DNA of 64,000 nt from Leuctra nigra. Its lineage: Eukaryota > Arthropoda > Insecta > Plecoptera > Leuctridae. Under the pieces are notes generated by a model. That model worked only from the letters and a program-made list of their open reading frames with translations, did no database searches and had not been told where the DNA came from. A program made the translations under genes and the position numbers. Positions 6,575 to 54,520 of this stretch are shown piece after piece (the first letter of the stretch is position 1; every line of letters begins with the position of its first letter). The stretch covers positions 14,540,345-14,604,344 of the forward strand of contig OW203762.1 in the NCBI GenBank assembly GCA_934045905.1. The letters run 5' to 3'.

Positions 6575-6716
6575 CAAATGTTATACTTTCCATATCGACA
6601 AGTTTGTCACATCAACATAATCTTCAACGAGAATGTCATCAATCTCAAATGTTATACTTTCCATATCGACAAGTTTGTCACATCAACATAATCTTCAACG
6701 AGAATGTCATCAATCT
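6575..6716. repeat. Perfect 71-bp tandem duplication
   Basis: The segment 6575-6645 is repeated immediately at 6646-6716 with no difference that I can see. It is a recent duplication of non-coding sequence, or an assembly artefact. Confidence 0.85.
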
Positions 6717-8689
6717 CAAAATGGCGGACGAATGAAGATATGTGATAATTCCAGAAACCTCCACAGCTTCCTCAATCCTATTTCAATCCATGTGTTTGTG
6801 ATAAGACTGATTTGATGATCCCAAAATCCATTCCAATCTCTTTGTGAGTGTTCGCTCTACAGCGTGATGTCAATAATATTGTCTGAATCCAACATAATAT
6901 AATACGAAATATATAGCAGAAGTAATACCAATGTAGATATTTTATTGTTAACCCAAAAAGCTTTCTTCAGAAAACCAGAAGTATCAAAATGGATATTTTT
7001 CATCTTGAAAGGGGAAAAGAATTTTTAATAAAATAGACTTTATTTGAAAACCCAACGGAAATCTGAATATCTCGACCTTCGACTATTCAATGACATTTTG
7101 ATATTGAAGTTCACGAACACAAAGATCGGGCTCAATGGAAACCAACAATACAAAGAAGAATAACCTTTTTGTTAATATGAAAACGCTCTGTGAACTCGGT
7201 AATAAGCAAGGCTGCGAAATGCAATGGAATGTATGCTGTCATCGCGGAACACTTTTTTAATAACATGTAAACCTTTTTTTGCACTCGAGCAGTCTTGAAA
7301 TTACATGCTGAGAAATCAAGGTACACCCGCGGTCACATAAATTGCTTGCACAATTCTAATTCATATTAAAAACTTGATTATCCAGACGGAAACACGTTTT
7401 TGAGGGTAAACGCAGATTTTGAGCATCTGGGGTTGGAGGGTTTGATTATAGGAACAAGCAGACCATCCTCATATTATATAATAATTATTTTCCCATTTAA
7501 CAAAAATTTACGGTAATTCGAGCTCCAGCTTAGCAGTTTACCGTCATTTTTTTATGACCGTGGGGATCATTCTATGAACATGTCATAAATAATTTGGTTG
7601 CTATGATATTTAATTAACATTGCAACTAAACCTTATAATGAATGTTCGTCAATTTTGATCTTATTAATTTCGGTGAAACAAATGACCGATCTTGCTACAA
7701 ATCAATAGTAATGTATAGTAATAGTAAATAGTAAATAGTTGATAGTAATGAATCTTTTGTGAGAAAATTTGCCTGATCCATTACTTTGTTTGACCTGTAG
7801 TGCGAAAAGAACACACGAACAAAAAAGAATCGTGCCATAAAAATGAGAGTGGGGAAAATAGTCAACTGCAATTTCCAAAATTCTAATCGAAAATGAGGAT
7901 TTCACTCCATTTGCGTGTATCAGCCACTAACATGCGACCTCGAAATCATCAGTATTGATCTACAAACTTCGTGAATACTTTAATATAACTTTATCTTAAA
8001 GAGCTTTTAAGTTGTTGTTTCCAAAGAAATCGGCAAAATATATTAGCTTTTAACACGCTAATATCAGTTCGAAGTTCGGAAATACATTATTATAAAACGA
8101 TGTCAGTACAACGTCGGTTATATTTGAAACTCCAACGTTGATCTGTTTTTAGGATGTCAATTAATAATTTGATAAAGCCCTGAAGCTTATTGCTGAACAA
8201 CGGAGGTCCAATATTGATTGTTATTTGATAGAACAAATTCGCAGGCCCCGAGGGCTCCATGGTATTTGGCAACGAGAGTGGAGGTTTTTAGGGTGTCTCG
8301 TGGGAATTGAATGCATGCGACGTTTTGAAACAACAAACCATCAACCTAACAGGATATTATTATTAATTTATGAATTCTAATTGAATGGAGCCATCGTTTT
8401 ATGTATACTTTTTGGCACAGAGCTTTATTTAGGTCCTTATTATATAGCTGTGTATAACCATCAGCTGACATGAACTCGCTTTTTTCATTGAAAATTTGAT
8501 ACGTTCATGATCTATGTAAAATTTTAAATTGTTATTTAAATATCTTATCTTTTTTGACCTCATTTTAGATAAATTGTCTGTTTTAAATGTCTATGTACTA
8601 ATGAGTATTACACAAGTGTTTCTTGAACAGAATCAGTAAATAATTATTTTTCGTTAAACTGGAATGTCTTTACCGAACCTTATGATACT
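6717..8689. other. Intergenic DNA, no gene seen
   Basis: AT-rich DNA without supportable exons, RNA genes or recognised repeats. A short TAGTAAATAGTAA-type repeat lies near 7707-7748. Confidence 0.5.
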
Positions 8690-16484: not shown

Positions 16485-19400
16485 TTATTCGGTCTTCACA
16501 GACTCAAACAGTTGGGCACTGTTCTCAGCCGACTCTTTGATCTTCGCGTATGCCGTCTCAGCAGCCTGCACAAGAGCTTTAGCAATAGTATCTGCTAATA
16601 ATTCTTTCGCCTTCGCTTCTGCCTTCAGAGCAGCATCGGATATGGAGGCTTGGGCCTTCTTAGCAGCATCAGCAGCCAGTGCAGCGACCTCAGCAGCTGC
16701 TTCCTTTGCTGCAGCTAAAGCCTTAGCAGCTACTTCAGCTGCAGCGGCATAGGCCTCAGAAGCAGCTTTAGCGAGTTTAGCAGCTTGTATCTGCGGAAAA
16801 GGACAGTGCATGTATGTATGGATTGTGTATTTGTGAACATTTCGCATCTCTAGAATCATACTACCCCATATCAATAAATTCAAAAGAGAAACCCAAAATG
16901 GGTACAGAAACTAAAGCTACTGTTTCGTTTATGAGCATATAAATCGGGTTCAATATGGGAAATCATTCTTTACAATGTGTGCTGTTAATTTTTGTGTACA
17001 AATTGTTAAGTATAGAATAATAGAAACTTGCAATTTCCAAATATTGTACTAGGATAACGCTAAGTGTAACGCGTTTATGAAGAAGAACTGTGACCTGTAT
17101 ACCCCCTAGTAAAAGGAATACATCACCAACTGATCACCAACTGATCACATTTTGATAACCGAGGTTACCAATTGATCACCATTTGTAAACCCGACATAAC
17201 CAACCTTCTACAGCAAGCCAACATTCATCACCATTTGATCACCATTTCACGTCAATTCAAACCACACAGACTAAGACAAACCAATACATTACCGATAGAT
17301 AACCGAAGAAATGAAACCAATACATCACCATCTGGTTTACAATTGGTTTACTTTTTTGTAAACCAATGCTAACCAATTAGTCACCAGTTGATAGCCAAAT
17401 ATAGTTAACCATCACATCACCACTGGTTTGCAAATGGTTTATTCTTTCGTAAACCAAATCTTACCAATAAGTCACCGTTTGATAACCAAAGATAGTAAAC
17501 CAATACATCACCACTGGATTGCAATTGGTTTACTCTTTTATCAACATCAAATTATTTTCACACAAATAACTTTATTTAGGTAGATCATTTTATGATGGAG
17601 AAAATGCATGCAAAAACGTGGTTGGAGTGCAATCAGTGGATCGGATCGTTACATTTACTATGAGTTTCATATGAAAACGCATCGACAGGGAGTATTGGAC
17701 AAGAAGAACTTTTGAGTGATGGGATTAAGAATTATTATTTTTATAATGAGCAGGTATACTTATCCATATCAATTATTAAATAATCGAAGGAAAATACTAT
17801 GAACACAGATTGTTCGACAAAATATTGTTTTATGGTAAGTTCCAATGAAATCAATGAATGTCGTAAAAATTATCCAGCTGAGCGGGGCTCGATCAAAGGA
17901 AGGAAGTATGAAGTACAATATACAAATAATTATCGTAATACAGTTTGTTCTAAATTTACCAATTTTGTGTCAACGGAACATTCAAACTTATTGTATTAGA
18001 TTATTAATTATCTAATAGGGTATCAGTTTTCTTGTATTACACAAATTATGATGGTACGATCTGTATAAAATGCCCAAAGTAATAAACACATAGATTAAAA
18101 ATCACTGTTTAATAAATTGTAAAATAAACGTTAAAAATACTATTACAAGCATAAGTTAACAACATACCAGAGCAAGTTATAGGTATAACCCTTTCAGTGC
18201 AAGAAAAGTCAACTGCCTTCATGGCGCAGAGCGTACGCTGTGAGATGTCACGCAGAGGGACCCGCGTTCAAATCTTCGTCGCAGCAAAATAATTTAAATT
18301 AGCATGCTAATTGTAACTGTCCAATTCTCTACAGATATGTGGTCAAATAGTGTATACGAATGTTAATTAAGTTGTAGTAATCAATTAAACTTTCGAATTT
18401 TGTTCTAAATTCTTGGAATGCATTGGTGATCAAATGGTTATCTATTGGTTTGTTTTGGTGATCAAACGGTTACCTATTGGTTAGTTTTGGTGATCAATTC
18501 GTACTCAAAGGTTATCAGTTGGTTTGTTTTGGTGACCAATTGGTTTATAATGGTGATGAATTGGTGTGTTTTGGCTCTAGATGGTTTGTGTTAGCCGAGT
18601 GCTTAGCTATCAGTTGGTTTGTTTTGGTGACCAACTGGTTTATAATAGTGATGAATTGGTGTGTTTTCGCTATCAGTTGGTTTGCGTTAGCCGAGAGCTT
18701 GGCTATCAATTGGCATAAAACTGATCACCAATACATCACATTTTGAAACAAATGTGATGTATTGGTGAGCAAAATGGTTTACAATTGGTGAACAAGTTGG
18801 TTTACAAAAGTGATCAGATGGTGATCAGTTGGTGATCAGTATTTTCTACTAGGGCCGGCAGTAACAGAAAAAAACAAAAAAACAGAGGTCCACGCGAAAA
18901 GAGCCAAAAAGCCATTATCTTCGCTCGCTCAATAATTTATAGTTAATTTGTTTAATTTAAGTGAGGTATAGGTATATTTACTCTTAGGGACTGTTTTTCA
19001 ATGCCTTGCTAACTATTAAACAGTTGATTAGGAGACTAGATTGCCATGGCAACAACCAATGACAATCACTCCACAATATTACCTTTGCCTCCTTAACAGT
19101 GGATTTCCCTGCCTCCTCAATAGCTTTTGCCGCTTCTTTAGCTTTGGCCCAAGCATTATCATTGGCTTCAACAGCTAGTTTAACGGCTGCAGATGCCTTT
19201 TCAGTGAGGCTCGTTTTGATCTTTTTCGCTAAGGCAACGGCGTCTTTCTGAAACGCTTTGAAAGCGGCGATTGCTTTTTCGGCGAGATCCGCAAGGGCCT
19301 TTTTACTGACTTCGAAAATGTGCTTGATGTCAAGGTCTCGTACTTACTACCACCGACGTGTTTTCACCATTTGGCGCATCTGGTTTCTCAGTCGCATTTC

Positions 19401-23246: not shown

Positions 23247-24109
23247 CAATTGGAAGTGGGCTCATACATATTCTTGCAGTACTGTTAATATGGCGATATT
23301 AGACTGGTATCTTTTCATAATTTGATCTTGACTGAAGGAAATCATGAAACGTTGTCAAATAATTACTAACTAATGGAACACAATTATATATTTTTGAAGT
23401 GTCAAGTGTATAAAGTTAAATTTTTTAATAGAAATTCAATATGACTGTCTTCTTTGTGAAATGTATTTTTATAAAATGTGTATTAATAGAAATTGTTACA
23501 TGATGAGAAGGTATAACGCATGAGACTTAATTATATTCACCACGAAACAATATTACAAAGATAACTATTGTGTATATTTATAGAAAGCATAGACAACAAG
23601 TTTCATAGCGTATATAATCATATAGAAAATATTTTACAGAAGGTATGTATAATATGTACCTAATTGAAAGATGTTTCCCTATTATTCTAAACATTCAAAA
23701 TGACGGTTGTATATAAATGGCACATGCTTATGAATAGAAAAATGTCTTTAAAAAAACGATGCGCCAAGTCCTTTTGTAAAGTATTTCTCGGTGTTTATAC
23801 TTTTATTTCAAAGATACGATTAAATATTTGGAAATGTCATTGACTTGGCTCCTTTTTTGATATCACTCCTTTTCGGTGTTGAATTTTTTTAAAGTAAAGA
23901 GACTTGGCTGCCTTTTTTACACGGAGTGTTTTTTTCTGGGATATCACTTCTTTTGTTAGTTTATTCATACAGCTTGTAGCACAGCTTGTGTCCGTGCAAG
24001 AACTTATTTCTTTAAAAAAATACGCCTATGCCGATTTGGATACTTAGAAAAGTTGCGTTTGGTATATAAGATTAAAATAATTATCCAAGAAGAATAGCTT
24101 TAAGTTTCG

Positions 24110-25049
24110 TTACAATCGGTCCAGCCGTTTTCGATATATGACGTCACTTCCGGTTTTAGCAATGGCGGCCGAAAATAATGTCGTCTTGAATTCATAATTA
24201 TTACTCCTACACATTTCCAAAATTTGGTTGCAATCGGTACAGCCGTTTTTGATATATAACGTCACTTCCGGTTTTAACAATGGCGGCCGAAAATAATGTC
24301 GTCTTGAATTCATAATCATATGTCCTACATCTTTACATAATTTAGTTGCAATCGGTACAGCCGTTTTCGATATATGACGTCACTTCCGGTTTTAACAATG
24401 GCGGCCGAAAATAATGTCGTCTTGAATTCATAATTATTAGTACAACACATTTCCAAAATTTGATTGCAATCGGTACAGCCATTTTCGATATTTGACGTCA
24501 CTTCCGGTTTTAACAATGGCGGCCGAAAATAATGTCGTCTTGAATTCATAATTATTAGTCCAACACATTTCCAAACTTAGGTTGCAATCGGTACAACCGT
24601 TTACGATATATGACGTCACTTCCGGTTTTAAAAATGGCCGCCGAGAACACTGCAACCTTGAATTTATAATTATTTACAAAGTACGTTTACTTATATCTAT
24701 TTTAAAGTATATAGTGGTGAATTTAGCGTCATTTAGCATATTTATGACGTCATTTCCGGTATAGGTCATAAAATGTGTGACGTCATTTCCGGTTTCGATA
24801 TTTGAATCATCAAATATTACTGATTACATAAAGTTGACCGTCTAAATCGTTTAGCGCTGGTTTTGTTCTAATCTGTTTAGCCGTTTTTGAGACATGATGT
24901 CACTTCCGGTTTCAAAATGGCGGCTTCCGGTTGGTTTTATAACAAGTCAAATGAAATATCAAAAGTACAAACGTTACATAAATATCAAGACAATCGGATC
25001 AACAGTTGTTGCTGAAATGCAAATCGATGTATATTAAATTTCATGACGT
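24110..25049 (+). repeat. 118-bp minisatellite of family A with CRE/ETS/YY1-like motifs (left part)
   Basis: The first units have TGACGTCACTTCCGGT-type cores at 24139, 24257, 24375, 24493 and 24611, an exact 118-bp period; later units are diverged. Most units read TGACGTCA, then CACTTCCGGT, then AATGGCGGCCG. These match the CRE palindrome, the ETS core (inverse ACCGGAAGTG) and a YY1-like GCCGCCATT. The array continues at 30612-31780 beyond the LTR element. The short repetitive open frames across it are by-products of the repeat. Confidence 0.85.
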
Positions 25050-26313: not shown

Positions 26314-26520
26314 TCGAATAACATTCCTGGGAGCAATTGTTTTGAAAGAAATAATTGTTTTCTTGATTGTGAAAGAGTTACTCAGTTGTTCTGAAACTTG
26401 TGGACACAGGCATTGCGTAAAATTTTCATGTATTTGGAAATTTTACATAGAATCAACCCGTTAACGTAAAGATAAAGCCAACTGTAGATTTGTGCATGTT
26501 AGTTCATTACATCTGTTACG

Positions 26521-28083
26521 ATGGCAGATCGAGATGCAAGTTTAGCGTCAACTGTAGATTTAGATGAGACTGTAGAGGGGGCGGGGGACCAGTCAGTGGT
26601 TAGTGAACTCGAGGTAACTAGGAGCCAGGTGATAGGGGAGGACGAACACGATGACTCGCTACCTCATGTTGAAATGCCAATCTTTGAAGAGAGACAAAAA
26701 GAAGCCAGGGCTGACAGTATATATTCACAATTCGGTGAGAAAGAATCCTCTAATCCAGTTATGGAATTCTTAATGAAAATGCAGCAAGAACAACAGGAAA
26801 AAGAAGCTATCAAGGAAATGAATAGGAAACTAGAGAAAATTAAGGAAAAGGAAGAAAGAGGAAAGGAGATGGAAAAGTTGTTGTTAAAAACTGAAAACGT
26901 CAGGGAGATCGTCAGTGAAATTCAAGCTGGATTGAAAAAGGTCGAAACTAGAGTCTCAAATGTAGAGGAGAGCGTACAGAGAATAAATGATAAAGTCGAC
27001 ACAGAGTTGGAGGTTATTAAGTCTTACATAGAATCAATTGGAGAACAAACGAGCAGTGTAGAGGAAAAAGTAAAATCCGAATTAGTAAAGATCAACACTG
27101 AGATCGATGAGCGTGACAAGAAACTCAGTCTGGAGCTATTTTCATTAAGCTCGCGATTTGAAAGAAAGGATAAAGAGAAGAATGAAAGCATTTCAGCTAT
27201 GAAGGAGAAAATAGAGGACGTAAGTAAAAAGGTAGATGAAAATGCAAAGAAGACTGGAACAACATCAAATGTCATCTGTCACGCAAATAACGAGTTGCAA
27301 TTTGCAAAACATTGTACTGAGTCGCTGATACAAGAGGCAATAAGATTTAATGGGGAAGAGAGTTGCCCAATAAACGCAATGCAATTTTTGAAGCTAATCA
27401 AAGAGCGTTTTTCAACATTCAATGTGAATAACAATCAGAAGCTGGGAATCATTGTCAAGTGTTTACATGGAAAAGCAGCAGACTGGTATGTAAATAATCC
27501 CGTTGAGAATATTGACAAATTTGAAGAGGCTTTTAAAGATAAATATTGGTCGCAAACTGTACAGCATCAGCTAATCAGATCAATCTATGCTGGAGAATAC
27601 AAAATTAGTTCGAACCTAAACATGGTGACCTATGTCAATCGGATTATCAACAAGGCAAAATATGTGACAGAATTGGTCAATATGACGGAACAAGTTTTGG
27701 TTGGAATATTGATTAATCACTTACCACCAAACATCAGGGTGATAGTACGTGGCAAAGTCAAAACTAAAGATGAGTTGATAAAAGAGCTGACTGACTTAGA
27801 GCATGATGAATTCACTGAAAAACTAATCAGAGATCCCAAGCAATATGAGCCAATTCGTAACGGGAACGGTTACAATGACAATAGGAACGGTTATAATAAC
27901 AGGAATAGTTATGACAGAAATTACAATAACAACAACAACGGGAGAAACAGTCATAACAGAAATGGGAATGGTAACGGGAATGGTAACGGGAATAATAATA
28001 ATCGTCCACCAGAGTCCGGTACGAAGGAAACGAAAAATGAAAATTCGGGAAACGAACAGAGGTCGACACAGAATGGAAAGTAG
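26521..28083 (+). CDS. gag: Retrotransposon Gag polyprotein
   Basis: 520 aa. Order of parts: an acidic N-terminal region (1-75); a long Lys/Glu-rich coiled coil (about 80-250); a capsid-like core (about 270-435) with the Ty3-type pattern FNGEE near 276, a hydrophobic segment ending LHGKAADWY, and FKDKYW; then an Asn/Gly/Arg-rich basic tail (about 440-520), probably RNA-binding. No CCHC zinc knuckle is present; the NG/RN-rich tail may replace it. The ATG at 26521 is the first in this frame after the primer-binding site. The stop TAG lies 2 nt before the next frame's ATG. The frame is intact, in line with a young insertion. Expected role: forming the particle that packages the element's RNA. 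Confidence 0.85.
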   Translation: MADRDASLASTVDLDETVEGAGDQSVVSELEVTRSQVIGEDEHDDSLPHVEMPIFEERQKEARADSIYSQFGEKESSNPVMEFLMKMQQEQQEKEAIKEMNRKLEKIKEKEERGKEMEKLLLKTENVREIVSEIQAGLKKVETRVSNVEESVQRINDKVDTELEVIKSYIESIGEQTSSVEEKVKSELVKINTEIDERDKKLSLELFSLSSRFERKDKEKNESISAMKEKIEDVSKKVDENAKKTGTTSNVICHANNELQFAKHCTESLIQEAIRFNGEESCPINAMQFLKLIKERFSTFNVNNNQKLGIIVKCLHGKAADWYVNNPVENIDKFEEAFKDKYWSQTVQHQLIRSIYAGEYKISSNLNMVTYVNRIINKAKYVTELVNMTEQVLVGILINHLPPNIRVIVRGKVKTKDELIKELTDLEHDEFTEKLIRDPKQYEPIRNGNGYNDNRNGYNNRNSYDRNYNNNNNGRNSHNRNGNGNGNGNGNNNNRPPESGTKETKNENSGNEQRSTQNGK

Positions 28084-28085
28084 AG

Positions 28086-28979
28086 ATGGGACACGATTTT
28101 GCGTCGACCGAGAAAACACGTTTCAAAGAGAGAAAAGAAGAAATTAGGAGAATGCAGAAGAAAGAGCGTGAGGATCTTAAAGAGTATATACGCAGATCTT
28201 CAAGACGGTGGAAGAAAGAGATGGATGAGCGAGAAGCTGCCAGAGAAGCAGAGGTTTCTGCAATAGAAAAGCAACTTCAAATAGATTTTTTGCTTTTCAA
28301 GAAAGGGATTGAAGACGCTGCTGCTTGCAAGACGTTGCAATCACAAGAGAGTACAGAGGGGGGCTGTGTGCCAGAAGAAATTGTCCAGAATAAAATTGAA
28401 AGTTTGGATGGACCAGACAAAGAAGAAGTTGATGAAAGTAGGCGTGAATTTACTGAGATGAAGAAAGATGAAAATGTATTTCGAAGGAAGAATTTTGAAG
28501 ACAATTACGAGGTAGTATTGCCACAAGTGAGCGAGAAGGAAGTATTACAGATTCCGATTGCGAATCAAGATGATTTCGACAGAGTTCGAACAGTTGAAGA
28601 AATTGGCGATGTTTTGAAGTCTATAGGCGACTTTAAAAGTAATGGTGAAAAGTTTCACGACGAGAAAAATGACAAGGTGATTATGAATGAAAACGATGAT
28701 GTTTTGAAGAAAGGGTTGAATAATGATTTGAGAGAAGAAGACGAAAATGTTTGCTTGCAAGATGGACTGCAAATGAACGTACGAGAACTGAAGAAGAAAG
28801 CTGACGAAAATGAAAACTACACATCGACCACTGCTCAAGAAAACAGGGAAGATTCTACTTGGAAACAGCTACTTGAAGATATTTCAAGGGTGAAAACTCA
28901 AGACAAAACAGAAGAAGGAACGATTTCATTTCCATTCGATCGTGGACGGAAGAAAGAAATCAATACGTCGAACAAATGA
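28086..28979 (+). CDS. Second retrotransposon ORF, charged coiled-coil protein of unknown function
   Basis: 297 aa, not recognised. The ATG is 2 nt after the gag stop (TAG AG ATG) and in another frame, which suggests termination-reinitiation. The N-terminal third is a highly charged helix rich in Arg, Lys and Glu, probably a coiled coil. The rest is acidic and polar with no motif I can identify. There is no DSG protease motif, YxDD reverse transcriptase box, or HHCC/DDE integrase signature. It occupies the place of pol. It could be an accessory or particle protein of a non-autonomous family, captured sequence, or a remodelled remnant. The intact frame argues that it is or recently was under selection. 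Confidence 0.6.
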   Translation: MGHDFASTEKTRFKERKEEIRRMQKKEREDLKEYIRRSSRRWKKEMDEREAAREAEVSAIEKQLQIDFLLFKKGIEDAAACKTLQSQESTEGGCVPEEIVQNKIESLDGPDKEEVDESRREFTEMKKDENVFRRKNFEDNYEVVLPQVSEKEVLQIPIANQDDFDRVRTVEEIGDVLKSIGDFKSNGEKFHDEKNDKVIMNENDDVLKKGLNNDLREEDENVCLQDGLQMNVRELKKKADENENYTSTTAQENREDSTWKQLLEDISRVKTQDKTEEGTISFPFDRGRKKEINTSNK

Positions 28980-30611: not shown

Positions 30612-31800
30612 ACGTCATTTCCGGTTTATTTAAAATAATGTTCAGTCTTTTGATATTGATAATCCATATAGATGACCGTCTGAAACGATTGGCGCAAATT
30701 TCGTTCCGATCGGTCCAACCGTTGACGAGATATGACGTCACTTCCGGTTTTAACAATGGTGGCCGAAAATAATGTCGTATTGAATTCATAATTATAAGTC
30801 TTACACAATTCCAAAATTTAGTTGCAATCGGTACAGCCGTTTTCGATATATGACGTAACTTCCGGTTTTGACAATGGCGGTCGAAAATAATGTCGTCTTT
30901 ATTTCATAATTATTAGTCCGACATAATTCTAAAATTTGGTTGCAATCGGTACATCCGTTTTCGATTTATGACGTCACTTCCGGTTTTAACAATGGCGGCC
31001 GAAAATAATGTCGTATTAAATTTATAATTATAAGTCCTACACAATTCCAAAATTTAGTTGCAATCGGTACAGCCGTTTTCGATATATGACGTCACTTCCT
31101 GTTTTATAAAATGGCGGCCGAGAGCACTGCAACCTTGAATTTATCATTATTTACAATGTATGTTTACTAAATATCTATTAAAAGTATAAAGTGGTGAATT
31201 TAGTGTCATTTAGCATATTAATGACGTCATTTCCTGTATAGGTAATAAGAAAACAATCTAGTTTTATCTAGTTGATACTTCATGAATGACCTTCTGAATT
31301 CAATAGCGCTAATTTCCGTCAAATCGCTCATGCCGTTTTCAATATATGACGTCACTTCCGGTTTCATTTAGTGGTTCCTGCCGCCATTTCCGGTACCGTT
31401 ATTTGTATATTCATTTATCCCAATTGATTTTTCAAATAGATTGCAGAATGAATAGACAGGAGCTAGTTCAGTGGCAATCGGTACAGGCGTTTTCGATGTA
31501 TGACGTCACTTCCGGTTTCAGGAATGGCGGCCGAGATCACTGTGTTTTTGTATTGTCTATGTTACAATGTAAGATAATTATATGTGTATTTAAAGTATAA
31601 TTTGATGAAATAAGCTAAATATTGCAAATTTATGACGTCACTTCCGGTTTAGAATATAAGAAAATTATATTTTTAAGTAACATACTTCATATAGATGACC
31701 ATCTAAATCGAATGGCGCTAATTTCGTTCTAATCGGTCCAGCCGTTTTTCATATATGACGTCACTTCCGGTTTAAAAATGGCGGCACAAAAAATCACAAG
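30612..31800 (+). repeat. Family-A minisatellite (right part of the A2 array)
   Basis: Continuation of the array broken by the LTR element. About ten further units hold GACGTCAnTTCC-type cores (for example near 30732, 30968, 31087, 31348, 31502, 31636 and 31759), more diverged than the left part and interspersed with a second unit type. Confidence 0.8.
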
Positions 31801-33654: not shown

Positions 33655-35215
33655 AAACCGGAAGTGACGTCATATCTCAAAAACGTCTGGACCGATTAGA
33701 ACGAAATTAGCGCCATTCGATTAAGATGGTCATCTTTATGAAGTATCAATAACAAAAAATTATTTTCTTATTTTCTAAACCGGAAGTGACGTCATAAATA
33801 TGCAATATTTCACTTATTTCAACAAATTATACTTTAAATACGTACATAATTAACTTACATTGTAATATAGACAATACAATTTATAAATTCAAGGTTGCAG
33901 TGTTCTCGACCGCCATTTCTGAAACCGGAAGTGACGTCATATATCTAAAACGCCTGTACCGATTGCAACTGAACTAGCTCCTGCGTATTCATTCTACTAT
34001 TTATTTGAAAAATCAATTGGGAAAAATGAATAAACAAATTAACGGTACCGGAAATGGCGGCAGGAACCACTAAATGAAACCGGAAGTGACGTCATATATT
34101 ACAAACGGCATGACCGATTTTACGGAAATATAGGGATTATGAATTCAGATGGTCGTTCATGAAGTATCAACTATAGATAAAACTAGATTGTATTCTTATT
34201 ACCTATACCGGAAATGACGTCATAAATATGATGATTGATGAATTACGTCATAAATATGTTAAATGACATTAAATTCACCACTTCATACTTTTAAATAGAT
34301 ATTAGTAAACGTACATTGTGAATAATTATAAATTCAAGGTTGCTGTGTTCTCGGCCGCCATTTTTAAAACCGGAAGTGACGTCATGTATCAAAAACGGCT
34401 GTACTGATTGCAACCAAATTTGGGAAATGTGTAGGTCTAATAATTATGAATTAAAGACGACATTATTTTCGGCCGCCATTGTTAAAACCGGAAGCGACGT
34501 CATATATCGAAAACGGCTGTACCGATTGGAACTAAATTGTGTAAATATGTAGGACATAAGAATATTGATTATGAATTTAAGACGACATTATTTTCGGCCG
34601 CCATTGTTAAAACCGGAAGTGACGTCATTTATTGAAAACGGCTGAACCAATTGCAACCAAATTTTAGGATTGTTTAGGACTAATAATTATGAATTAAAGA
34701 CGACATTATTTTCGGCCGCCATTGTTAAAACCGGAAGTGACGTCATTTATCGAAAACGTCTGTACCGATTGCAACCAAATTATGCAATTATGTAGGACTT
34801 ATTATTATGAATTCAAGACGACATTATTTTCCACCGCCATTTCAAAACCGGAAGTGACGTCATATATAGAAAACGGCTGTACCAATTGCAACCAAATTTT
34901 GGAAATGTGTAGGACTAATAATTATGAATTAAAGACGACATTATTTTCGGCCGCCATTGTTAAAACATGAATTTACGTCATATATCGAAAACGGCTGTAC
35001 CGATTGCAACCAAATTTTGGAAATATGTAGGACTAATAATTATGAATTCAAGAAGACATTATTTTCGGCCGCCATTTCAAAACCGGAAGTGACGTTATAT
35101 ATCGAAAACGGCTAAACCGATTGTTATCAATTTATGTAATTTTGTAGGACTTCTAATTATGATTTCAAGAAGACATTATTTTCGGCCCCTATTTCAAAAC
35201 CGGAAGTGACGTCAA
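33655..35215 (-). repeat. Family-A minisatellite array of copy A3
   Basis: Inverted orientation, with cores reading ACCGGAAGTGACGTCA on the plus strand. About 12 cores are present, many followed by GCCGCCATT. One unit near 34970 has lost its ETS/CRE core. Confidence 0.85.
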
Positions 35216-35943
35216 ATATCGAAAACGGCTGGACCGATTGTAACGAAACCTTAGCTATTTTTTTTGGATAATCATTTTAATCTTTTACCAAACGCAACTT
35301 TTCTTAGTACCTATCCAAATCGGTTGAGGCGTATTTTTTTTAAAGAAATTAGTCCTTGCTCGGACATGTGCTACAAGCTGTATGAATAAACTAACAAAAG
35401 AAGTGATATCCCAGAAAAAAACACTCCGTGTAAAAACGGCAGCCAAGTCTCTTTACTTCAAAAAAATTCAACACTGAAAAGGAGTGATATCAAAAAAGGA
35501 GCCAAGTCAATGACATTTCCAAATATTTAATCGTATTTTTGAAATAAAAGAATAAACACCGAGAAATACTTTACAAAAGGACTTGGCGCATCGTTTTTTT
35601 AAAGACGTTTTTCTATTCATAAGCATATGCCATTTATAAACAACCGTCATTAAGAATTTTTAGAATAATAGGGAAACATCTTTCAATTACTTATTACACA
35701 TACCTACTGTAAAATATTTTCTATTTGAATATATACGCGATGAAACTGTTGCCTATGTTTTCTAAATACACAATAGTTATCTTCGTAATATTGTTTCGTG
35801 GCAACATATTAATTAGGTAAGTCTAATGCGTTAATCCTTCTCATCATGAAATAAATTTCTACTGCATTTTATAGCAATACATTTCACAAAGTACACAGTG
35901 AAGTCACATTGTATTTCTATTAAAAAAAATAACTTTATACACT

Positions 35944-43972: not shown

Positions 43973-46900
43973 TCAGTGTGCCGATTTCTTGCGGTCTTGG
44001 TCCAGTTGGGCCTGGATGTTCCTGGTCTCCTCCTCCTCCAGCGTGGACCGACGTCGGGGGTCGGGCTGACTGGCGGCGTCCCGGAGACTCTGCTTGGTCG
44101 TCAGACGCACGACGCCGGCGTCCTCCGGATTGCTCTTGCCGGCGTCCCTCAGCGCCGAGCCGACTCTCTGTCTGCTGGGGTCTCGCGAATCGGGATCCAA
44201 GCTGTCCTGAAAACATACAGAATACCAATGTGGTATTTATACTTGTTCTCCGTTTTTACCTATTGAAAGGAAAATCATTGACTTTCGCTCTATATGGGAT
44301 TTGCGAGACTGTCGTCGATGTCTAGTGACAAAGAATGTCGACCCGCTCTTACGTACTGACCAAAGTCAAATTCTTCACACGTCTGGGTCAATATATACCA
44401 CCATGGTCTGGCTGAGATCGTCTTGCATTTGAACGGATTTCAGGGAAACCTGACACAGTACAACAATATGCTTATGAGACAGACAGTGCTAATAAACCAA
44501 ATTAATAATAATATGTCTTTATATTGCCCGAATCTTGTAAAGCAAAACGACCTTCGACATCGGCAAAAGCATTCACTGCTGCAGCTATAGCAGTCACGAT
44601 TCCCATGGGTCAATTACATCAGCAACTTGAGCAACTTGGTTATGTATAACATGTTCAGGATTACATTACGGTTGCCAAAGTCGCTCTGCTGAAGAGCAAA
44701 ACCAGGTTGTTCAGCAGAACATTACCGACTGAATCAGCCCTTATAAATATTGGGAAATCAACTGCGTCCAAAGGGGTTAGAGAGTGTTTCCTCAATCTTT
44801 TTGACATCACTTTGTACTCTCTACAGACTTCAAGAAGGACGAGAAGTTGACATTTATTGTGTATCTCTGTCTTTCTCGAACTCATGTGCAATGGTATATT
44901 GGCGACATCTAGCGTCGAGGTTTTGAATTATGCGCAATGCTCTTAGAATATTTTCAACTTGCTGGCAATGTACTATAACCCTTGATTATAAGACCGTTCC
45001 CCCCCCCCCCCCCCCCCACTCAGCAACTTCTGTCGAACTTACCGACGACTCGGCCTTGACGGGATTGTGCACCGGTTCGTGACGGTGGAGCCAGACGTCG
45101 GCGAGGATCTCGGTGAGGATGATGCGCGTGCGCAGCTGGGCGAGGATGCGCGTGATGAGGTTCTTGCACTCGGACGAGACGCGGGGTTCTCGGGGGAACG
45201 CCACGCGTCTCTCCACTTGCTGCAACACGGACAAGCTGGACATGGGGAGGCGAAGAGCGAGACGCGCGGTTCTCGGGGGAACGCCACGCGTCTCTCCACT
45301 TGCTGCAACACGGACAAGCTGGACATGGGGAGGCGAAGACCGAGACGCGCGGTTCTCGGGGGAACGCCACGCGTCTCTCCACTTGCTGCAACACGGACAA
45401 GCTGGACATGGGGAGGCGAAGAGCGAGACGCGCGGTTCTCGGGGGAACGACACGCGTCTCTCCACTTGCTGCAACACGGACAAGCTGGACATGGGGAGGC
45501 GAAGAGCGAGACGCGCGGTTCTCGGGGGAACGCCACGCGTCTCTCCACTTGCTGCAACACGGACAAGCTGGACATGGGGAGGCGAAGAGCGAGACGCGCG
45601 GTTCTCGGGGGAACGCCACGCGTCTCTCCACTTGCTGCAACACGGACAAGCTGGACATGGGGAGGCGAAGAGCGAGACGCGCGGTTCTCGGGGGAACGAC
45701 ACGCGTCTCTCCACTTGCTGCAACACGGACAAGCTGGACATGGGGAGGCGAAGAGCGAGACGCGCGGTTCTCGGAGGAACGACACGCGTCTCTCCACTTG
45801 CAGCAACACGGACAAGCTGGACATGGGGAGGCGAAGAGCGAGACGCGCGGTTCTCGGGGGAACGCCACGCGTCTCTCCACTTGCTGCAACACGGACAAGC
45901 TGGACATGGGGAGGCGAAGAGCGAGACGCGCGGTTCTCGGGGGAACGACACGCGTCTCTCCACTTGCTGCAACACGGACAAGCTGGACATGGGGAGGCGA
46001 AGAGCGAGACGCGCGGTTCTCGGGGGAACGCCACGCGTCTCTCCACTTGCTGCAACACGGACAAGCTGGACATGGGGAGGCGAAGAGCGAGACGCGCGGT
46101 TCTCGGGGGAACGACACGCGTCTCTCCACTTGCTGCAACACGGACAAGCTGGACATGGGGAGGCGAAGAGCGAGACGCGCGGTTCTCGGGGGAACGCCAC
46201 GCGTCTCTCCACTTGCTGCAACACGGACAAGCTGGACATGGGGAGGCGAAGAGCGAGACGCGCGGTTCTCGGGGGAACGACTCGCGTCTCTCCACTTGCT
46301 GCAACACGGACAAGCTGGACATGGGGAGGCGAAGAGCGAGACGCGCGGTTCTCGGGGGAACGCCACGCGTCTCTCCACTTGCTGCAACACGGACAAGCTG
46401 GACATGGGGAAGCGAAGAGCGAGACGCGCGGTTCTCGGGGGAACGCCACGCGTCTCTCCACTTGCTGCAACACGGACAAGCTGGACATGGGGAGGCGAAG
46501 AGCGAGGAGCGCGGTTCTCGGGGGAACGCCACGCGTCTCTCCACTTGCTGCAACACGGACAAGCTGGACATGGGGAGGCGAAGAGCGAGACGCGCGGTTC
46601 TCGGGGGAACGCCACGCGTCTCTCCACTTGCTGCAACACGGACAAGCTGGACATGGGGAGGCGAAGAGCGAGACGCGCGGTTTTCGGGGGAACGCCACGC
46701 GTCTCTCCACTTGCTGCAACACGGACAAGCTGGACATGGGGAGGCGAAGAGCGAGACGCGCGGTTCTCGGGGGAACGCCACGCGTCTCTCCACTTGCTGC
46801 AACACGGACAAGCTGGACATGGGGAGGCGAAGAGCGAGACGCGCGGTTCTCGGGGGAACGCCACGCGTCTCTCCACTTGCTGCAACACGGACAAGCTGGA

Positions 46901-49900
46901 CATGGGGAGGCGAAGAGCGAGACGCGCGGTTCTCGGGGGAACGCCACGCGTCTCTCCACTTGCTGCAACACGGACAAGCTGGACATGGGGAGGCGAAGAG
47001 CGAGACGCGCGGTTCTCGGGGGAACGCCACGCGTCTCTCCACTTGCTGCAACACGGACAAGCTGGACATGGGGAGGCGAAGAGCGAGACGCGCGGTTCTC
47101 GGGGGAACGCCAAGCGTCTCTCTACTTGCTGCAACACGGACAAGCTGGACATGGGGAGGCGAAGAGCGAGACGCGCGGTTCTCGGGGGAACGACACGCGT
47201 CTCTCCACTTGCTGCAACACGGACAAGCTGGACATGGGGAGGCGAAGAGCGAGACGCGCGGTTCTCGGGGGAACGACACGCGTCTCTCCACTTGCTGCAA
47301 CACGGACAAGCTGGACATGGGGAGGCGAAGAGCGAGACGCGCGGTTCTCGGGGGAACGCCACGCGTCTCTCCACTTGCTGCAACACGGACAAGCTGGACA
47401 TGGGGAGGCGAAGAGCGAGACGCGCGGTTCTCGGGGGAACGACACGCGTCTCTCCACTTGCTGCAACACGGACAAGCTGGACATGGGGAGGCGAAGAGCG
47501 AGACGCGCGGTTCTCGGGGGAACGACACGCGTCTCTCCACTTGCTGCAACACGGACAAGCTGGACATGGGGAGGCGAAGAGCGAGACGCGCGGTTCTCGG
47601 GGGAACGACACGCGTCTCTCCACTTGCTGCAACACGGACAAGCTGGACATGGGGAGGCGAAGAGCGAGACGCGCGGTTCTCGGGGGAACGCCACGCGTCT
47701 CTCCACTTGCTGCAACACGGACAAGCTGGACATGGGGAGGCGAAGAGCGAGACGCGCGAATCTCGGGGGAACGACACGCGTCTCTCCACTTGCTGCAACA
47801 CGGACAAGCTGGACATGGGGAGGCGAAGAGCGAGACGCGCGGTTCTCGGGGGAACGCCACGCGTCTCTCCACTTGCTGCAACACGGACAAGCTGGACATG
47901 GGGAGGCGAAGAGCGAGACGCGCGGTTCTCGGGGGAACGCCACGCGTCTCTCCACTTGCTGCAACACGGACAAGCTGGACATGGGGAGGCGAAGAGCGGT
48001 ACGCGCGGTTCTCGGGGGAACGACACGCGTCTCTCCACTTGCTGCAACACGGACAAGTTGGACATGGGGAGGCGAAGAGCGAGACGCGCGGTTCTCGGGG
48101 GAACGCCACGCGTCTCTCCACTTGCTGCAACACGGACAAGCTGGACATGGGGAGGCGAAGAGCGAGACGCGCGGTTCTCGGGGGAACGCCACGCGTCTCT
48201 CCACTTGCTGCAACACGGACAAGCTGGACATGGGGAGGTGAAGAGCGAGACGCGCGGTTCTCGGGGGAACGCCACGCGTCTCTCCACTTGCTGCAACACG
48301 GACAAGCTGGACATGGGGAGGCGAAGAGCGGTACGCGCGGTTCTCGGGGGAACGCCACGCGTCTCTCCACTTGCTGCAACACGGACAAGCTGGACATGGG
48401 GAGGCGAAGAGCGAGACGCGCGGTTCTCGGGGGAACGCCACGCGTCTCTCCACTTGCTGCAACACGGACAAGCTGGACATGGGGAGGTGAAGAGCGAGAC
48501 GCGCGGTTCTCGGGGGAACGCCACGCGTCTCTCCACTTGCTGCAACACGGACAAGCTGGACATGGGGAGGCGAAGAGCGAGACGCGCGGTTCTCGGGGGA
48601 ACGCCACGCGTCTCTCCACTTGCTGCAACACGGACAAGCTGGACATGGGGAGGTGAAGAGCGAGACGCGCGGTTCTCGGGGGAACGCCACGCGTCTCTCC
48701 ACTTGCTGCAACACGGACAAGCTGGACATGGGGAGGCGAAGAGCGAGACGCGCGGTTCTCGGGGGAACGCCACGCGTCTCTCCACTTGCTGCAACACGGA
48801 CAAGCTGGACATGGGGAGGTGAAGAGCGAGACGCGCGGTTCTCGGGGGAACGCCACGCGTCTCTCCACTTGCTGCAACACGGACAAGCTGGACATGGGGA
48901 GGCGAAGAGCGAGACGCGCGGTTCTCGGGGGAACGCCACGCGTCTCTCCACTTGCTGCAACACGGACAAGCTGGACATGGGGAGGCGAAGAGCGAGACGC
49001 GCGGTTCTCGGGGGAACGCCACGCGTCTCTCCACTTGCTGCAACACGGACAAGCTGGACATGGGGAGGCGAAGAGCGAGACGCGCGGTTCTCGGGGGAAC
49101 GCCACGCGTCTCTTCACTTGCTGCAACACGGACAAGCTGGACATGGGGAGGCGAAGAGCGAGACGCGCGGTTCTCGGGGGAACGCCACGCGTCTCTCCAC
49201 TTGCTGCAACACGGACAAGCTGGACATGGGGAGGCGAAGAGCGAGACGCGCGGTTCTCGGGGGAACGCCACGCGTCTCTTCACTTGCTGCAACACGGACA
49301 AGCTGGACATGGGGAGGCGAAGAGCGAGACGCGCGGTTCTCGGGGGAACGCCACGCGTCTCTCCACTTGCTGCAACACGGACAAGCTGGACATGGGGAGG
49401 CGAAGAGCGAGACGCGCGGTTCTCGGGGGAACGCCACGCGTCTCTCCACTTGCTGCAACACGGACAAGCTGGACATGGGGAGGCGAAGAGCGAGGAGCGC
49501 GGTTCTCGGGGGAACGCCACGCGTCTCTCCACTTGCTGCAACACGGACAAGCTGGACATGGGGAGGCGAAGAGCGAGGAGCGCGGTTCTCGGGGGAACGC
49601 CACGCGTCTCTCCACTTGCTGCAACACGGACAAGCTGGACATGGGGAGGCGAAGAGCGAGACGCGCGGTTCTCGGGGGAACGCCACGCGTCTCTCCACTT
49701 GCTGCAACACGGACAAGCTGGACATGGGGAGGCGAAGAGCGAGACGCGCGGTTCTCGGAGGAACGCCACGCGTCTCTCCACTTGCTGCAACACGGACAAG
49801 CTGGACATGGGGAGGCGAAGAGCGAGACGCGCGGTTCTCGGGGGAACGCCACGCGTCTCTCCACTTGCTGCAACACGGACAAGCTGGACATGGGGAGGCG

Positions 49901-52514
49901 AAGAGCGAGGAGCGCCTGGTCTTGTTTGATTCTGACCACTTACCCTGACCAGCCGGCTGTAGCTGCTGTCGTCGAAGGGAAGTCTGCCGTAAACCATGGC
50001 GAACAAGACGACGCCTGTCGACCAGACGTCGGACATGCGAGGGTTGTACGGCGTGCCGCGGAGGATCTCGGGCGAAGCGTAGGCATAGCTGCCGCAATAT
50101 GTCTCGCACAGGTCCGGCATTCCGCGCGAGTTGATCGAGTGGTTGCGCGCGAACCCAAAGTCGGACAGCTTTATGTTGTACCCCGCGTCCATCAGCATGT
50201 TTTCACATTTGATATCTCTGAAATGAGGTTGTTATAATTACTTGATGATGGTGTCCTTGTATTCGTTATTTCTCCATCTCTTTTTACATTTTCAGGTTTG
50301 ATGGTAATATTTATATAATTGGTCTGTTGTAGTCGAAATTTCCCGTATATTTGAATATTTATACCATGGTAATTAAGGTGATCACATAGTTTTTAATAGT
50401 ACTTTTGAATTGTACTATTTAAACCTAGATAAAAACCTAGACCTAACCTAGATAGCCCTTAACTTAACTATCTAACCTAACCCTTAACCTAGATAGCTGT
50501 CTAGCTAGAACGTAGATACGTGTCTAAAACGTAGATTTTATCTTATTTAACGTCACACATCTCACGATCTCAAATCACAAGTTCTGATCACAAGACAAGT
50601 GGACGAACCTGTGGACCACCTCTTGGCTGTGACAATAACCCACAAGACAAGTGGACGTACCGGTGGACCACCTCTTGGCTGTGACAATAACCCACTGCCT
50701 CAACCAGCTGGCGAAACCACTTCCTCGCTCGCACCTCGTCTATTTGGAGATCCCTTCTGATCACATCTAGGAGGCTCCCGTTGTCGGAGTACTCCATCAC
50801 GATGTAAACGCTGGCGAACACAGAACATCGCGTTACCTAGCGTCCAGTACACATGACGCATTCGATCGAATTGGATGCGTGGATTTTAATGTTAAATTGT
50901 TCAAGGCCACAAAGGATTCTACAATCCAAGGTCATATCCAATGTTCAAGGTGGATGTGTCGTGTGTACTGGGCTTAATAGCTACACGACACACTCACCTC
51001 GAGCTAATTGTATACTTTATTATTGTATGAACCCAACACTATAATGTTTCAAAGCGCGCAGGTGTGACCTTGAACGTATAATATAACGCATAGCCCTAGC
51101 AGTAATGGATTTAAGTTCAACCAAACCTACGGCCTCCATTCACCCCCACCATATTCAAACAACTTTTCCAGTGATAACGTTCGAGGAGATTGATCTAATC
51201 CATACCTAATCTAACGTTAATGTATGGAAAGGGTGGAAGGGTTTGGTCAGGTGTGTACTTGTACTTGAACAATTTGACATTGCGTTCCCCACCAATTCTT
51301 GCTTCCAATGCGTTGTGTGTATTCATCACAATTACAAGATGCACTGCTTATGCAACCACAGCATCTCCAGCAATAGTTTTTGAATCTTAAAATGTTTTAA
51401 TTACTTTTACTTACCGGTGGGTGGTTTCGATTGCTTGCAGAAATTTGATCAAATTAGGATGTCTCAGGCCCTTGACAACCTCAATTTCTCTCGGCAGAAA
51501 TCTCTTCAGATAGTCGTCGGGAGCTCGAATTTTTGAAACTATTTTTACTGCTACAGTGCTTTGGTGCTTTTGTGAGTATGCCTTCTGTAAAATTAGGACA
51601 GGCAGTTTACTATCTGCATTCTGCACATGGAGCGACTATAGGTACTATCTAGTATCTGCAGATACTATCTGCACATACTAGCTATCTGCACATAGAGCGA
51701 TATTCATGAATTTGACTGGTCAAGTCGATTGGGAAATTGGACCGTATTCTCTGACCTTGAAGTTAAGAGTTTAAGCATCGGAAGCTACTAAAAAGGAAGG
51801 CATAATATAGGTATAGGAATTATGAATTAGCTCAAGGTATCAAATTTCCAATCCACAACTCTTTTGAATTAAAAAAATACAATTCCATATTATGGCAATA
51901 TCCCGATAAAGTTAGCGGCAGGATTTATTGGTTGAAACCTTGGCACAAGCCAAATCTACGCCGCATGTAAAAAGTTAAATGTTGCAGAAACTCATATAAT
52001 ATACCAGCCATATTGCAAATGCCAAAATAGAACTAGCAAGATCAACAAAATCCATGTTGATGATCCCATGAAGCCATGGCATCCATGTTGGATCAGAAAG
52101 CCCGGGCTCTTAAGTTAGGGCAGATGGGCACAGGTTTGAGCTCGTTTGTTGACGCCGCAAGTTTGATTTAACCCGTAAATCCTATGGTGACGTCACACGC
52201 CCAACTCACCCCGTTGTGGAACTCACCTTGACTTCGGCGTAAGAGCCGGAACCGATAACCACGCCCATGGCATATCCATGTGCCTCCATCACCGTCTGTC
52301 GCCTCTCCTCTTGAGGCGCCGCCGCCACATCAACGACGGGAGGCTGCGACACCGCCTGAACACCGCCAGGAGGTTGCGCCGTCGCATGATCTCGGACGGG
52401 AGGAGGCACTGTATCCAAGGACGAGGTGACGCTAATCTTCGCTGCGATGCCAACAGGCGGGGTTTTGGGTAACTTTGGAGGAGGAGTGATTTTTTCTGGG
52501 CCAGATCTTTTCAT
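43973..52514 (-). CDS. Testis-specific serine/threonine kinase (TSSK) family protein
   Basis: Six minus-strand exons: 52514-52227, 51584-51415, 50810-50661, 50217-49944, 45219-45043 and 44206-43973. Phases agree at every junction and give 430 aa. All donors are GT (GTGAGT, GTAAGT, GTACGT, GTAAGT, GTAAGT) and all acceptors AG. Domains: Pro/Ala-rich N-terminus (1-78); glycine loop IGSGSYAEV (87-95); VAVK lysine K110; TSSK-like [14 protein letters not shown] with probable helix-C Glu 129; HRDIKCEN (202-209); DFG (222-224); SPE in place of APE (251-253); kinase C-lobe to about 345; charged tail (354-430). All catalytic residues are present, so it should be active. TSSKs act in late spermatogenesis; testis expression here is inferred from the family. 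The start ATG has G at -3. Intron 4 is 4724 bp, nearly all 83-bp satellite. Confidence 0.9.
44999..45017. repeat. 19-nt C homopolymer beside the exon 5 donor
   Basis: A G-run on the transcribed strand, starting about 25 nt after the exon 5 splice donor (45042). The length is probably variable or imprecise in the assembly. Confidence 0.8.
45175..49915 (-). repeat. 83-bp satellite, 57 units, spanning the intron 4/exon 5 boundary of TSSK
   Basis: The motif CTGCAACACGGACAAGCTGG recurs at 45220 and then every 83 bp to 49868: 57 units, with total spacing exactly 56 x 83 and no net indel. On the transcribed strand each unit is 38 nt of intron end (cttgtccgtgttgcag acceptor) plus 45 nt matching the start of exon 5 (CAAGTGGAGAGACGCGTGGC onward). 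Only the last copy continues into unique exon sequence. Removing 56 units leaves a 76-bp intron. Variants are few (cgcc/cgac, aggcg/aggtg, gagac/gagga). Because 83 is not a multiple of 3 and the unit lacks stops on the transcribed strand, long frames of 600-1700 codons run through it; I do not regard them as genes. Confidence 0.95.
50591..50694 (-). repeat. 52-bp tandem duplication of the TSSK exon 3/intron 3 junction
   Basis: Copies at 50643-50694 (functional: exon end CCACCG, donor GTACGT) and 50591-50642 (inside the intron: CCACAG, GTTCGT). They differ at only three positions in the donor area. The second copy duplicates the last 34 nt of exon 3 and its donor and may serve as a weak alternative donor. 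Confidence 0.85.
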
Positions 52515-53129: not shown

Positions 53130-54520
53130 CTGTTGTCGATCAACGTCCTTCTTCCCGTTCCATGCATTTACGTTCTATTCTCCCCCCTCCGGCAACCGAT
53201 AGCATGGTAAACTCGTTTAAATGTGGGGGGGGGGGTGAATGGAGGGTGAGAGACACACTATTCCCAGACTGTACAGCTTCTCGGATAGGCCCTATTTCTC
53301 GGGGATAGGGCTAGTATAGGGCAAAGCTAGGGTAGGTTATGCTCGATTTTCCTATGTAATGCCCAGTTTTCTTAGGTTACTACCCAGACCGGATTACGCA
53401 CGCACAAAACAATGGCCGGACGAGTAAAATCACTCTATTCATCTGGCTGGCAGGACGACTAACCATAGACATATTATACCTACTCAATACCTACACAACT
53501 TCAGGATTGCAAAAATCGATTCAACTAATTTGCAATTTTTTACACGATGTTACTCATTAAATTACGTGATTATTATTGTGTACCTCTAACCAAATGACCA
53601 ATATGTACCTACTTACCAACGTCGTTCTAAAAATCAGGAAGAAAACGATGGAATTTGCAGCGGAGATCTAGAGGTTCCAAAGGCATGCCATAATCCAAGC
53701 CGGATGATGTGGATAGATGTGGATGGGGATTCAAGGGAATGATGTTTACTGACAATATTTATACCAAGGTGTTTACCAATGCCATGGAATTAAAAGCAAT
53801 CCCTGCGCTGTTTTGCAGTACGAGATGAAAATTTAAGTTGCTATTTTGACGTTGGAACAATTTTTAGCTTTGCTAGCATTTTAAGTGGCAGTGATCTCAG
53901 TTACATAAAATCTGACCAAAGTTCAATGATTATGTACATTTCTTTCACATGATTGACTGTGGAGTTGCTCATTATTAACATATCAGAAAAACGCTTGCTT
54001 TTCGTTGATAAACGAGCGTCGTAATTTAGTAATTTAGCAAATTTTCTCTATCTGTAATGCTAGAAAAGAGACCTTCAGTGAAGTGAGTGAGACAAATCAT
54101 GGTGCTTATATCGCTCATTCAAAACTAAAAAAAAGAGGATGGGGAATAAAATACACACAAATATGATCCATTTCTTCAGATATTTACCATTTTTAAGTCA
54201 CCAAAATGTCAGATTAAAAGAAAAAAATGCGGAACCAATCGAGTTTCCCTGACGAAGTTACTTTTGACAAGTTAAAAGTTGTAAAATTACCAGGAAATTT
54301 AGTATTTTGTAGTAAAATGCTACATTTCCGGGGCATGACCACTAGGCAATACCCGAAAAATTATGTTATTGAACGTGATTAGTTTTGAATATCAAAACTT
54401 TAATTAACCATTTTGTTCGGGAAACGTTCTTCAATGCGTATTTTTCAATTTTGTCTTCAAACTAACAGAATTTAAAAAAACGGATATTCGTGACCATCAC
54501 ACATGGAGTACATAAACTTA
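53130..54520. other. Intergenic DNA, no gene seen
   Basis: G-homopolymer near 53224 and otherwise AT-rich DNA. A short family-B-like fragment (gaaaaacgcttgcttttcgt) may lie near 53988. No exon is supported. Confidence 0.45.

Follow-up and report, generated by a model that had tools for sequence, protein, structure and literature searches.

The window analysed here, a stretch of 64,000 nucleotides from contig OW203762.1 of Leuctra nigra (positions 14,540,345 to 14,604,344), contains on its minus strand, at 43973-52514, a six-exon gene for a TSSK-type kinase (gene A) with a predicted product of 430 aa. Exon 1, counted from the predicted ATG (52227-52514), is followed by exon 2 (51415-51584), exon 3 (50661-50810), exon 4 (49944-50217; 274 nt, ending in phase 0), exon 5 (45043-45219; 177 nt) and exon 6 with the stop codon (43973-44206), all on the minus strand. 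Intron 4 starts with the donor GT at 49943 and holds a tandem array of units that each span the acceptor region. If the last acceptor, directly before 45219, is used, the intron is of the GT...AG type, measures 4724 nt (45220-49943, minus strand) and is followed by exon 5, the first 45 nt of which belong to the last unit as its exonic part. Joining exon 4 to this last acceptor results in a CDS of 1293 nt that encodes 430 aa without an internal stop. The gene model thereby bears out a first-pass annotation of this DNA, which had proposed a single upstream donor at 49943, an intron 4 of 4724 bp and an intact 430-aa kinase upon use of the last acceptor.

A complete protein kinase domain was recognized in product A (PF00069, 217.5 bits, residues 83-338, profile positions 3-263 of 263), and the translation contains VAVK, HRD and DFG in this order, which we take to be the catalytic motifs. 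Among the best 60 of 2706 distinct PDB sequences, the nearest solved relatives were TSSKs (TSSK6 8iyj, E 6.7e-68; 8otz, E 2.4e-67), followed by MARK kinases from E 2e-54 onward. Judged by its sequence, gene A is thus a TSSK-type protein kinase gene. Further TSSK-like kinase genes are located on the same contig (L039-L042 and L047; C2, 14.45, 15.85-15.86 and 18.94 Mb), some of which encode the larger part of the kinase domain within a single open frame, and their presence suggests that the TSSK family has expanded on contig C2. A separate 52-bp tandem duplication of 2.1 copies (TRF; 50589-50695, minus strand) lies over the exon 3 donor of gene A and gives rise to two donors, CCG/GTACGT and CAG/GTTCGT (the slash marks the splice joint), only the first of which keeps the frame; it is also present in paralogue B described below, and none was seen at the exon 3 end of paralogue C.

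Anatomy of the array

Tandem Repeats Finder reported a period of 83, 57.0 copies, 98% matches, 0% indels and a score of 9176 for window positions 45175-49909, and parsing from 49905 down to 45175 divided the array into 57 head-to-tail units on the minus strand, all 57 exactly 83 bp long (4731 bp in total). The 57 copies in exact register described by the first-pass annotation were thus recovered, as was the composition of the unit: in gene orientation it consists of 38 nt of the end of intron 4 (ctcttcgcctccccatgtccagcttgtccgtgttgcag, polypyrimidine/AG) and the first 45 nt of exon 5. The span of 45175-49915 given there was correct at its start and ten nucleotides too long at its end, since the array stops at 49905 and the ten intron bases beside unit 1 (49906-49915, minus strand) only resemble the end of the unit, with 8/10 matching positions that probably represent microhomology. 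The consensus sequence is present in 28 of the 57 units. A complete 3' splice site had been claimed for every unit; the acceptor AG is kept in 56/57 units of array A, the exception being unit 50 with TG, and in 91/91 units of the second array introduced below, i.e., in 147/148 overall. In both arrays the last unit carries G74C relative to the consensus.

The array crosses an exon-intron boundary and its unit contains a splice site, as expected of a splice-site minisatellite. An origin of introns by tandem duplication, by comparison, would call for a unit supplying both donor and acceptor, and the best GT within the unit agrees with the donor consensus at 5/9 positions (6/9 in three mutated units) vs 7-9 for the gene's own donors. 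A hairpin formed by GAGACGCG...CGCGTCTC in the exonic part of the unit beats most shuffles (z -2.75 to -4.54 in five sequences) and may have helped slippage. As a marker of the last acceptor this hairpin was ruled out because the last unit has it as well.

Other repeats and frames were noted elsewhere in the window. A 118-bp repeat family (with CGGAAGTGACGTCATATATCGAAAACGGCTG) forms three arrays in both orientations within about 11 kb (24105-24674, 30696-31121 and 34351-35248), and a 71-bp unit at 6575-6720 is present in 2.1 copies with 100% matches, which is probably very recent. Two long open frames overlap at 26503-28083 and 28041-28979; the former appears Gag-like by eye (KAADWY, Asn-rich tail) and had no match in Pfam. 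On the minus strand, the frame at 16485-16910 encodes a strongly alanine- and lysine-rich segment (AAKLAKAASEAYAAAAEVAAKALAAAKEAAAE...), and that part had no Pfam match either.

A second array and an array-free paralogue

When the assembly (536 Mb, 144 contigs) was searched for kinases, an unusually long open frame led to a second gene with the structure of gene A, 4 Mb away on the same contig and in opposite orientation (paralogue B; G000:C2:18.58-18.60 Mb). At the junction that carries the array in gene A, paralogue B has 91 units, 89 of 83 bp, one of 82 bp and one of 85 bp; its intron 4 is 7547 nt long and it likewise encodes 430 aa. When the whole 536-Mb assembly was searched with the unit, 148 matches were obtained, all of them in arrays A and B (57 + 91); the search skips very common words and might therefore have missed a large satellite elsewhere. 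Within this scope the unit occurs at two loci and not, like a dispersed satellite, at many.

The flanks of A and B match from about window position 54513 to at least 43275, being 92-98% alike in pieces (best 40 matches) and interrupted by insertions, mostly in B; matches beyond this extent fall among dispersed repeats and were left out. On account of this divergence and of the insertions, the two loci represent, at the level of sequence, copies of a diverged segmental duplication rather than alleles. Their coding sequences differ at 14 of 1293 nt, with 10 synonymous and 4 nonsynonymous differences (dN 0.0041, dS 0.032, dN/dS 0.13), and in exons 5 and 6, which follow the array, all 3 differences in 411 nt are synonymous. 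By comparison, 229 of 4243 aligned noncoding sites (5.4%) are mismatched in a pool of introns 1, 2, 3 and 5 plus 2 kb upstream, from which a poorly aligning downstream stretch of 1.5 kb and the 38 intron nucleotides preceding the array were excluded. The difference between exons 5-6 and the noncoding pool is significant (Fisher p 1.2e-6), also without the 45 nt belonging to the array (p 8.6e-6). The lack of amino acid changes in exons 5 and 6 against 5.4% noncoding divergence indicates that both genes have continued to yield a protein read correctly beyond the array, so that productive splicing across both arrays has been under selection. Since both genes look intact, the spliceosome must at least frequently select the correct junction among many near-identical ones.

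Gene conversion restricted to the exons is the main alternative to selection for the likeness of exons 5 and 6, and it appears unlikely because the adjacent intron 5 differs at 42/750 sites; yet divergence is uneven along the locus, ranging from 1 to 26 mismatches per 150-nt window, some of the low values also coming from part of intron 1 and from the upstream region. A local A/B conversion tract centred on the array does not stand out: the nearest noncoding windows have 2/150 mismatches in intron 3, 1/40 just before the array and 7/150 in intron 5. Short conversion tracts would be compatible with the sequence data.

A more distant relative, paralogue C, is located about 133 kb from gene A near C2:14446.0-14451.1 kb. 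Its exon 4 is 274 nt long, equal to that of A, and the exon 4/5 joint is at the same position (..SRLLR/QAEKRV.. vs ..SRLVR/QVERRV.. in the comparison of C and A). Intron 4 of paralogue C measures 425 nt and has one acceptor with the same core as the unit, gtgttgcag/CAAG; no array was found in C, a single TTGCAGCAAG being present on the gene strand within 14.4 kb of sequence. Moreover, the alignment of TSSK6 (PDB 8iyj) with product A runs without a gap across the exon 4/5 joint. Paralogue C and this ungapped alignment thus independently confirm, by sequence comparison, the junction from which the first-pass annotation had derived the unit. As paralogue C shares the junction with one acceptor and no array, the comparison shows the array to be a derived state that arose in the A/B lineage. 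An expansion from a 76-bp intron to 4724 bp had also been proposed; the latter length holds, and the former is the remainder after collapsing the array to one unit and would describe the ancestral intron only by deduction, paralogue C having 425 nt there.

Origin and turnover of the arrays

The array would have started with a first tandem duplication across the acceptor of intron 4 and the start of exon 5, probably between two imperfect 10-mers 83 bp apart, namely the ten intron bases before unit 1 and the last ten bases of the unit. Seeding by microhomology is suggested by the 8/10 match of these stretches together with the finding that some units of both arrays carry the intron version of the bases at positions 78-79. 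The minisatellite would then have grown by slippage or unequal exchange. Several variants are common to arrays A and B (G57T, G7A, G78T, T79C, C80A, G54T and C72T, in addition to G74C of the last unit), which implies that the array was multi-unit before the A/B duplication or that units were exchanged afterwards. Along the arrays, variant sharing exceeds that of shuffled arrays at distances of 2 to 4 units in A and of 3 units in B, as expected under local amplification of short blocks.

Unit divergence amounts to 2.2% between the arrays vs 1.6% within A and 2.6% within B, and the flanks diverge by 5.4%. Had the arrays evolved neutrally and wholly independently of each other, such a low between-array divergence would not be readily expected; it would be accounted for if both had recently regrown from shared founder units or if the loci had exchanged units. 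Constraint on the intronic part of the units was considered as well and rejected. The raw counts of off-consensus cells are lower in the intronic than in the exonic part (8 vs 34 in A, 22 vs 89 in B), and this deficit is due to five recurrent subtype sites and vanishes without them (A, 8/2166 intronic vs 13/2280 exonic, p 0.39; B, 22/3382 vs 18/3560, p 0.43, 89/91 units). Distinct variants number 17 at 38 intronic vs 25 at 40 exonic positions. Once the five subtype sites are set aside, there is no sign of constraint on the units.

Choice among the acceptors

The consequences of acceptor choice were followed by taking each acceptor in turn and reading through the remaining array, on the assumption that exon 6 is the final one. 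Translation runs to the correct kinase end from 8/57 acceptors in A (units 36, 39 ... 57) and from 17/91 in B, the last acceptor included; in A the internal ones among these add 83 residues per three units, and only the last acceptor yields the kinase of 430 aa. From 14/57 acceptors in A and 41/91 in B, reading halts at a stop codon that precedes the exon 5/6 joint by more than 50 nt, and the remaining acceptors (35 in A, 33 in B) lead in the wrong frame to an end in exon 6 or past its normal stop. The frame entering from exon 4 is open through all units and would encode 1946 aa (A) or 2887 aa (B) if the intron were retained, ending out of frame. Coding read-through of the array was rejected as the main product, since the introns of 4724 and 7547 nt are both 2 modulo 3 and therefore out of frame with exon 5. 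Among 20000 shuffled unit compositions, 12.7% were open in three frames and 0.9% in six; the five stops within the arrays all fall in the other two frames in both arrays, for which the chance is estimated at about 13% (two thirds to the fifth power).

Minisatellites at exon-intron boundaries are a described class: in genes of human segmental duplications they have a mean unit of 30 bp in 4 copies (160 bp) and, as here, differ in copy number between recent paralogues, whereas the units of this study measure 83 bp and are present in 57 and 91 copies (PMC2812944). The nearest published case found is the VNTR in intron 18 of human ABCA7, a long tandem repeat on an exon-intron boundary with a splice site in its unit, in which about 12 to 427 units of 25 bp (up to 10.7 kb) have the exon 18 donor as their first two bases (PMC5954066). 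The exon-adjacent site is still used there and retention of one extra unit is rare (2 +/- 1%) and independent of array size; long alleles show lower expression and more skipping of exon 19 (PMC5954066). In contrast to this intronic donor unit, the present array is an acceptor version with a longer unit that is about half coding (83 bp with 45 coding nt) and occurs in two paralogues. Satellite repeats also enlarge the gigantic introns of kl-3 and kl-5, male germ-cell genes of Drosophila; those introns are megabase-sized and the sections of the source considered here do not mention a splice-junction origin, whereas the introns of A and B are of 4.7 and 7.5 kb in genes with a predicted testis role (PMC6508621). 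As in the intron gain described for a potato RdRp gene, a tandem duplication over gene sequence has multiplied splice signals, with the difference that no intron was gained here and that the unit has an acceptor without a good donor (PMC4974935). A splice-acceptor minisatellite of this kind was not found among the literature matches listed, outside which the subscription literature largely falls, so that absence is not implied.

We consider it probable that a minisatellite was seeded over the splice junction, has been tolerated there and is removed as an intron via the last acceptor by exon definition. In both genes the single exon 4 donor would pair with the last acceptor, at any rate in productive transcripts. 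Within the unit, A15 is predicted, and presumably acts, as the likeliest branch base, and the AG at 21-22 would then be too close to the branch for use. Because the branch point of the last acceptor must be near and the sequence upstream is repeat, units 2 to 57 would carry the same signals. Under exon definition, the last acceptor alone would form an ordinary 177-nt exon with the downstream donor, and an internal acceptor could open only a long exon because the units have no good donor. This mechanism would pick the last acceptor often enough for the array to be tolerated, and the array needs no function of its own to fit the data.

The two modes of splice site pairing pull to opposite ends of the array, as the first acceptor of A gives an intron of 76 nt and an exon of 4825 nt and the last one an exon of 177 nt with the exon 5 donor. 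In human genes, splice sites of introns longer than 250 nt tend to find their nearest partner on the other side of the exon, and those of shorter introns on the other side of the intron (PMC9225289). The section of that study on 3' splice sites lends less weight to the last acceptor than the abstract does: overall, the upstream one of competing 3' sites is preferred, strongly so in short introns and to a significantly reduced degree, though without reversal, in long ones, and where the upstream intron is short, events follow intron definition (PMC9225289). With an intron of 76 nt, the first acceptor should thus compete well. Conservation of exons 5 and 6 and the rarity of unit retention in ABCA7 make use of the last acceptor likelier (PMC5954066), and some share of unproductive transcripts is well possible.

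Were this share sizeable, the first and internal acceptors would send transcripts out of frame and partly to degradation, and array length might tune the dose of kinase. Such leaky choice would fit the loss of the kinase end with 49/57 acceptors in A and 74/91 in B, the early stops from 14/57 and 41/91 acceptors, the short first intron in view of the upstream preference of human 3' sites (PMC9225289) and the behaviour of the long ABCA7 alleles (PMC5954066). On the other hand, dN/dS of 0.13 and the unchanged amino acids of exons 5 and 6 argue for enough productive message in both genes, and use of the second donor in ABCA7 does not change with VNTR size (PMC5954066); we therefore regard leaky choice as possible but unlikely. 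It is quite improbable that the array works more generally as a ladder of dozens of equal acceptors, on which intron and exon definition compete and whose length sets the amount of kinase or adds 83-aa blocks.

The addition of such blocks by itself, in which in-frame internal acceptors at each third unit from the end would produce a family of kinases of different length, draws on the frame being open to the correct end from 8/57 and 17/91 acceptors, the last one counted. It is hardly credible, given that 12.7% of shuffled units have three open frames, that the insert would lie within the conserved kinase fold at a place where neither TSSK6 nor paralogue C has one, and that stops occur in two frames of the arrays and two indels in B. 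Stepwise removal, finally, would start from the joining of exon 4 to a near acceptor. As considered for the exon 4/5 joint (49944 to 45219), exon 4 and the consensus unit together form CAG/GCAAGT, a perfect donor of the GC type that fits the donor consensus at 9/9 positions with C standing for T and could be spliced to a later acceptor; the second step loses one G, by which a message ending at the last acceptor would be out of frame, and this route is barely conceivable. An assembly artefact, i.e., a short real intron with an array multiplied by the assembler, is very improbable, since the array is present at two separate loci that differ in its length, have unit variants of their own and are flanked by diverged sequence. 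Among these readings, removal of the array as an intron ending at the last acceptor remains the one we favour.

Work on how a donor chooses between competing acceptors usually deals with two sites at a time. Arrays A and B offer 57 and 91 nearly identical natural acceptors, of which the first is alone in having an upstream context of its own and the last in having a downstream one. The two ends of this series are favoured by intron definition and exon definition, respectively, and the frame together with the conservation of exons 5 and 6 points to use of the last acceptor at least often. New here are the second array of 91 units, an array-free paralogue with the same junction and the conserved exons behind the arrays, beside an already known class of minisatellites (PMC2812944). 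The two loci show how far a coding gene tolerates a satellite on its splice junction. If the array did act as a ladder, a change in minisatellite copy number would tune a sperm kinase, and genes A and B, with 57 and 91 rungs, would provide a natural series for comparison.
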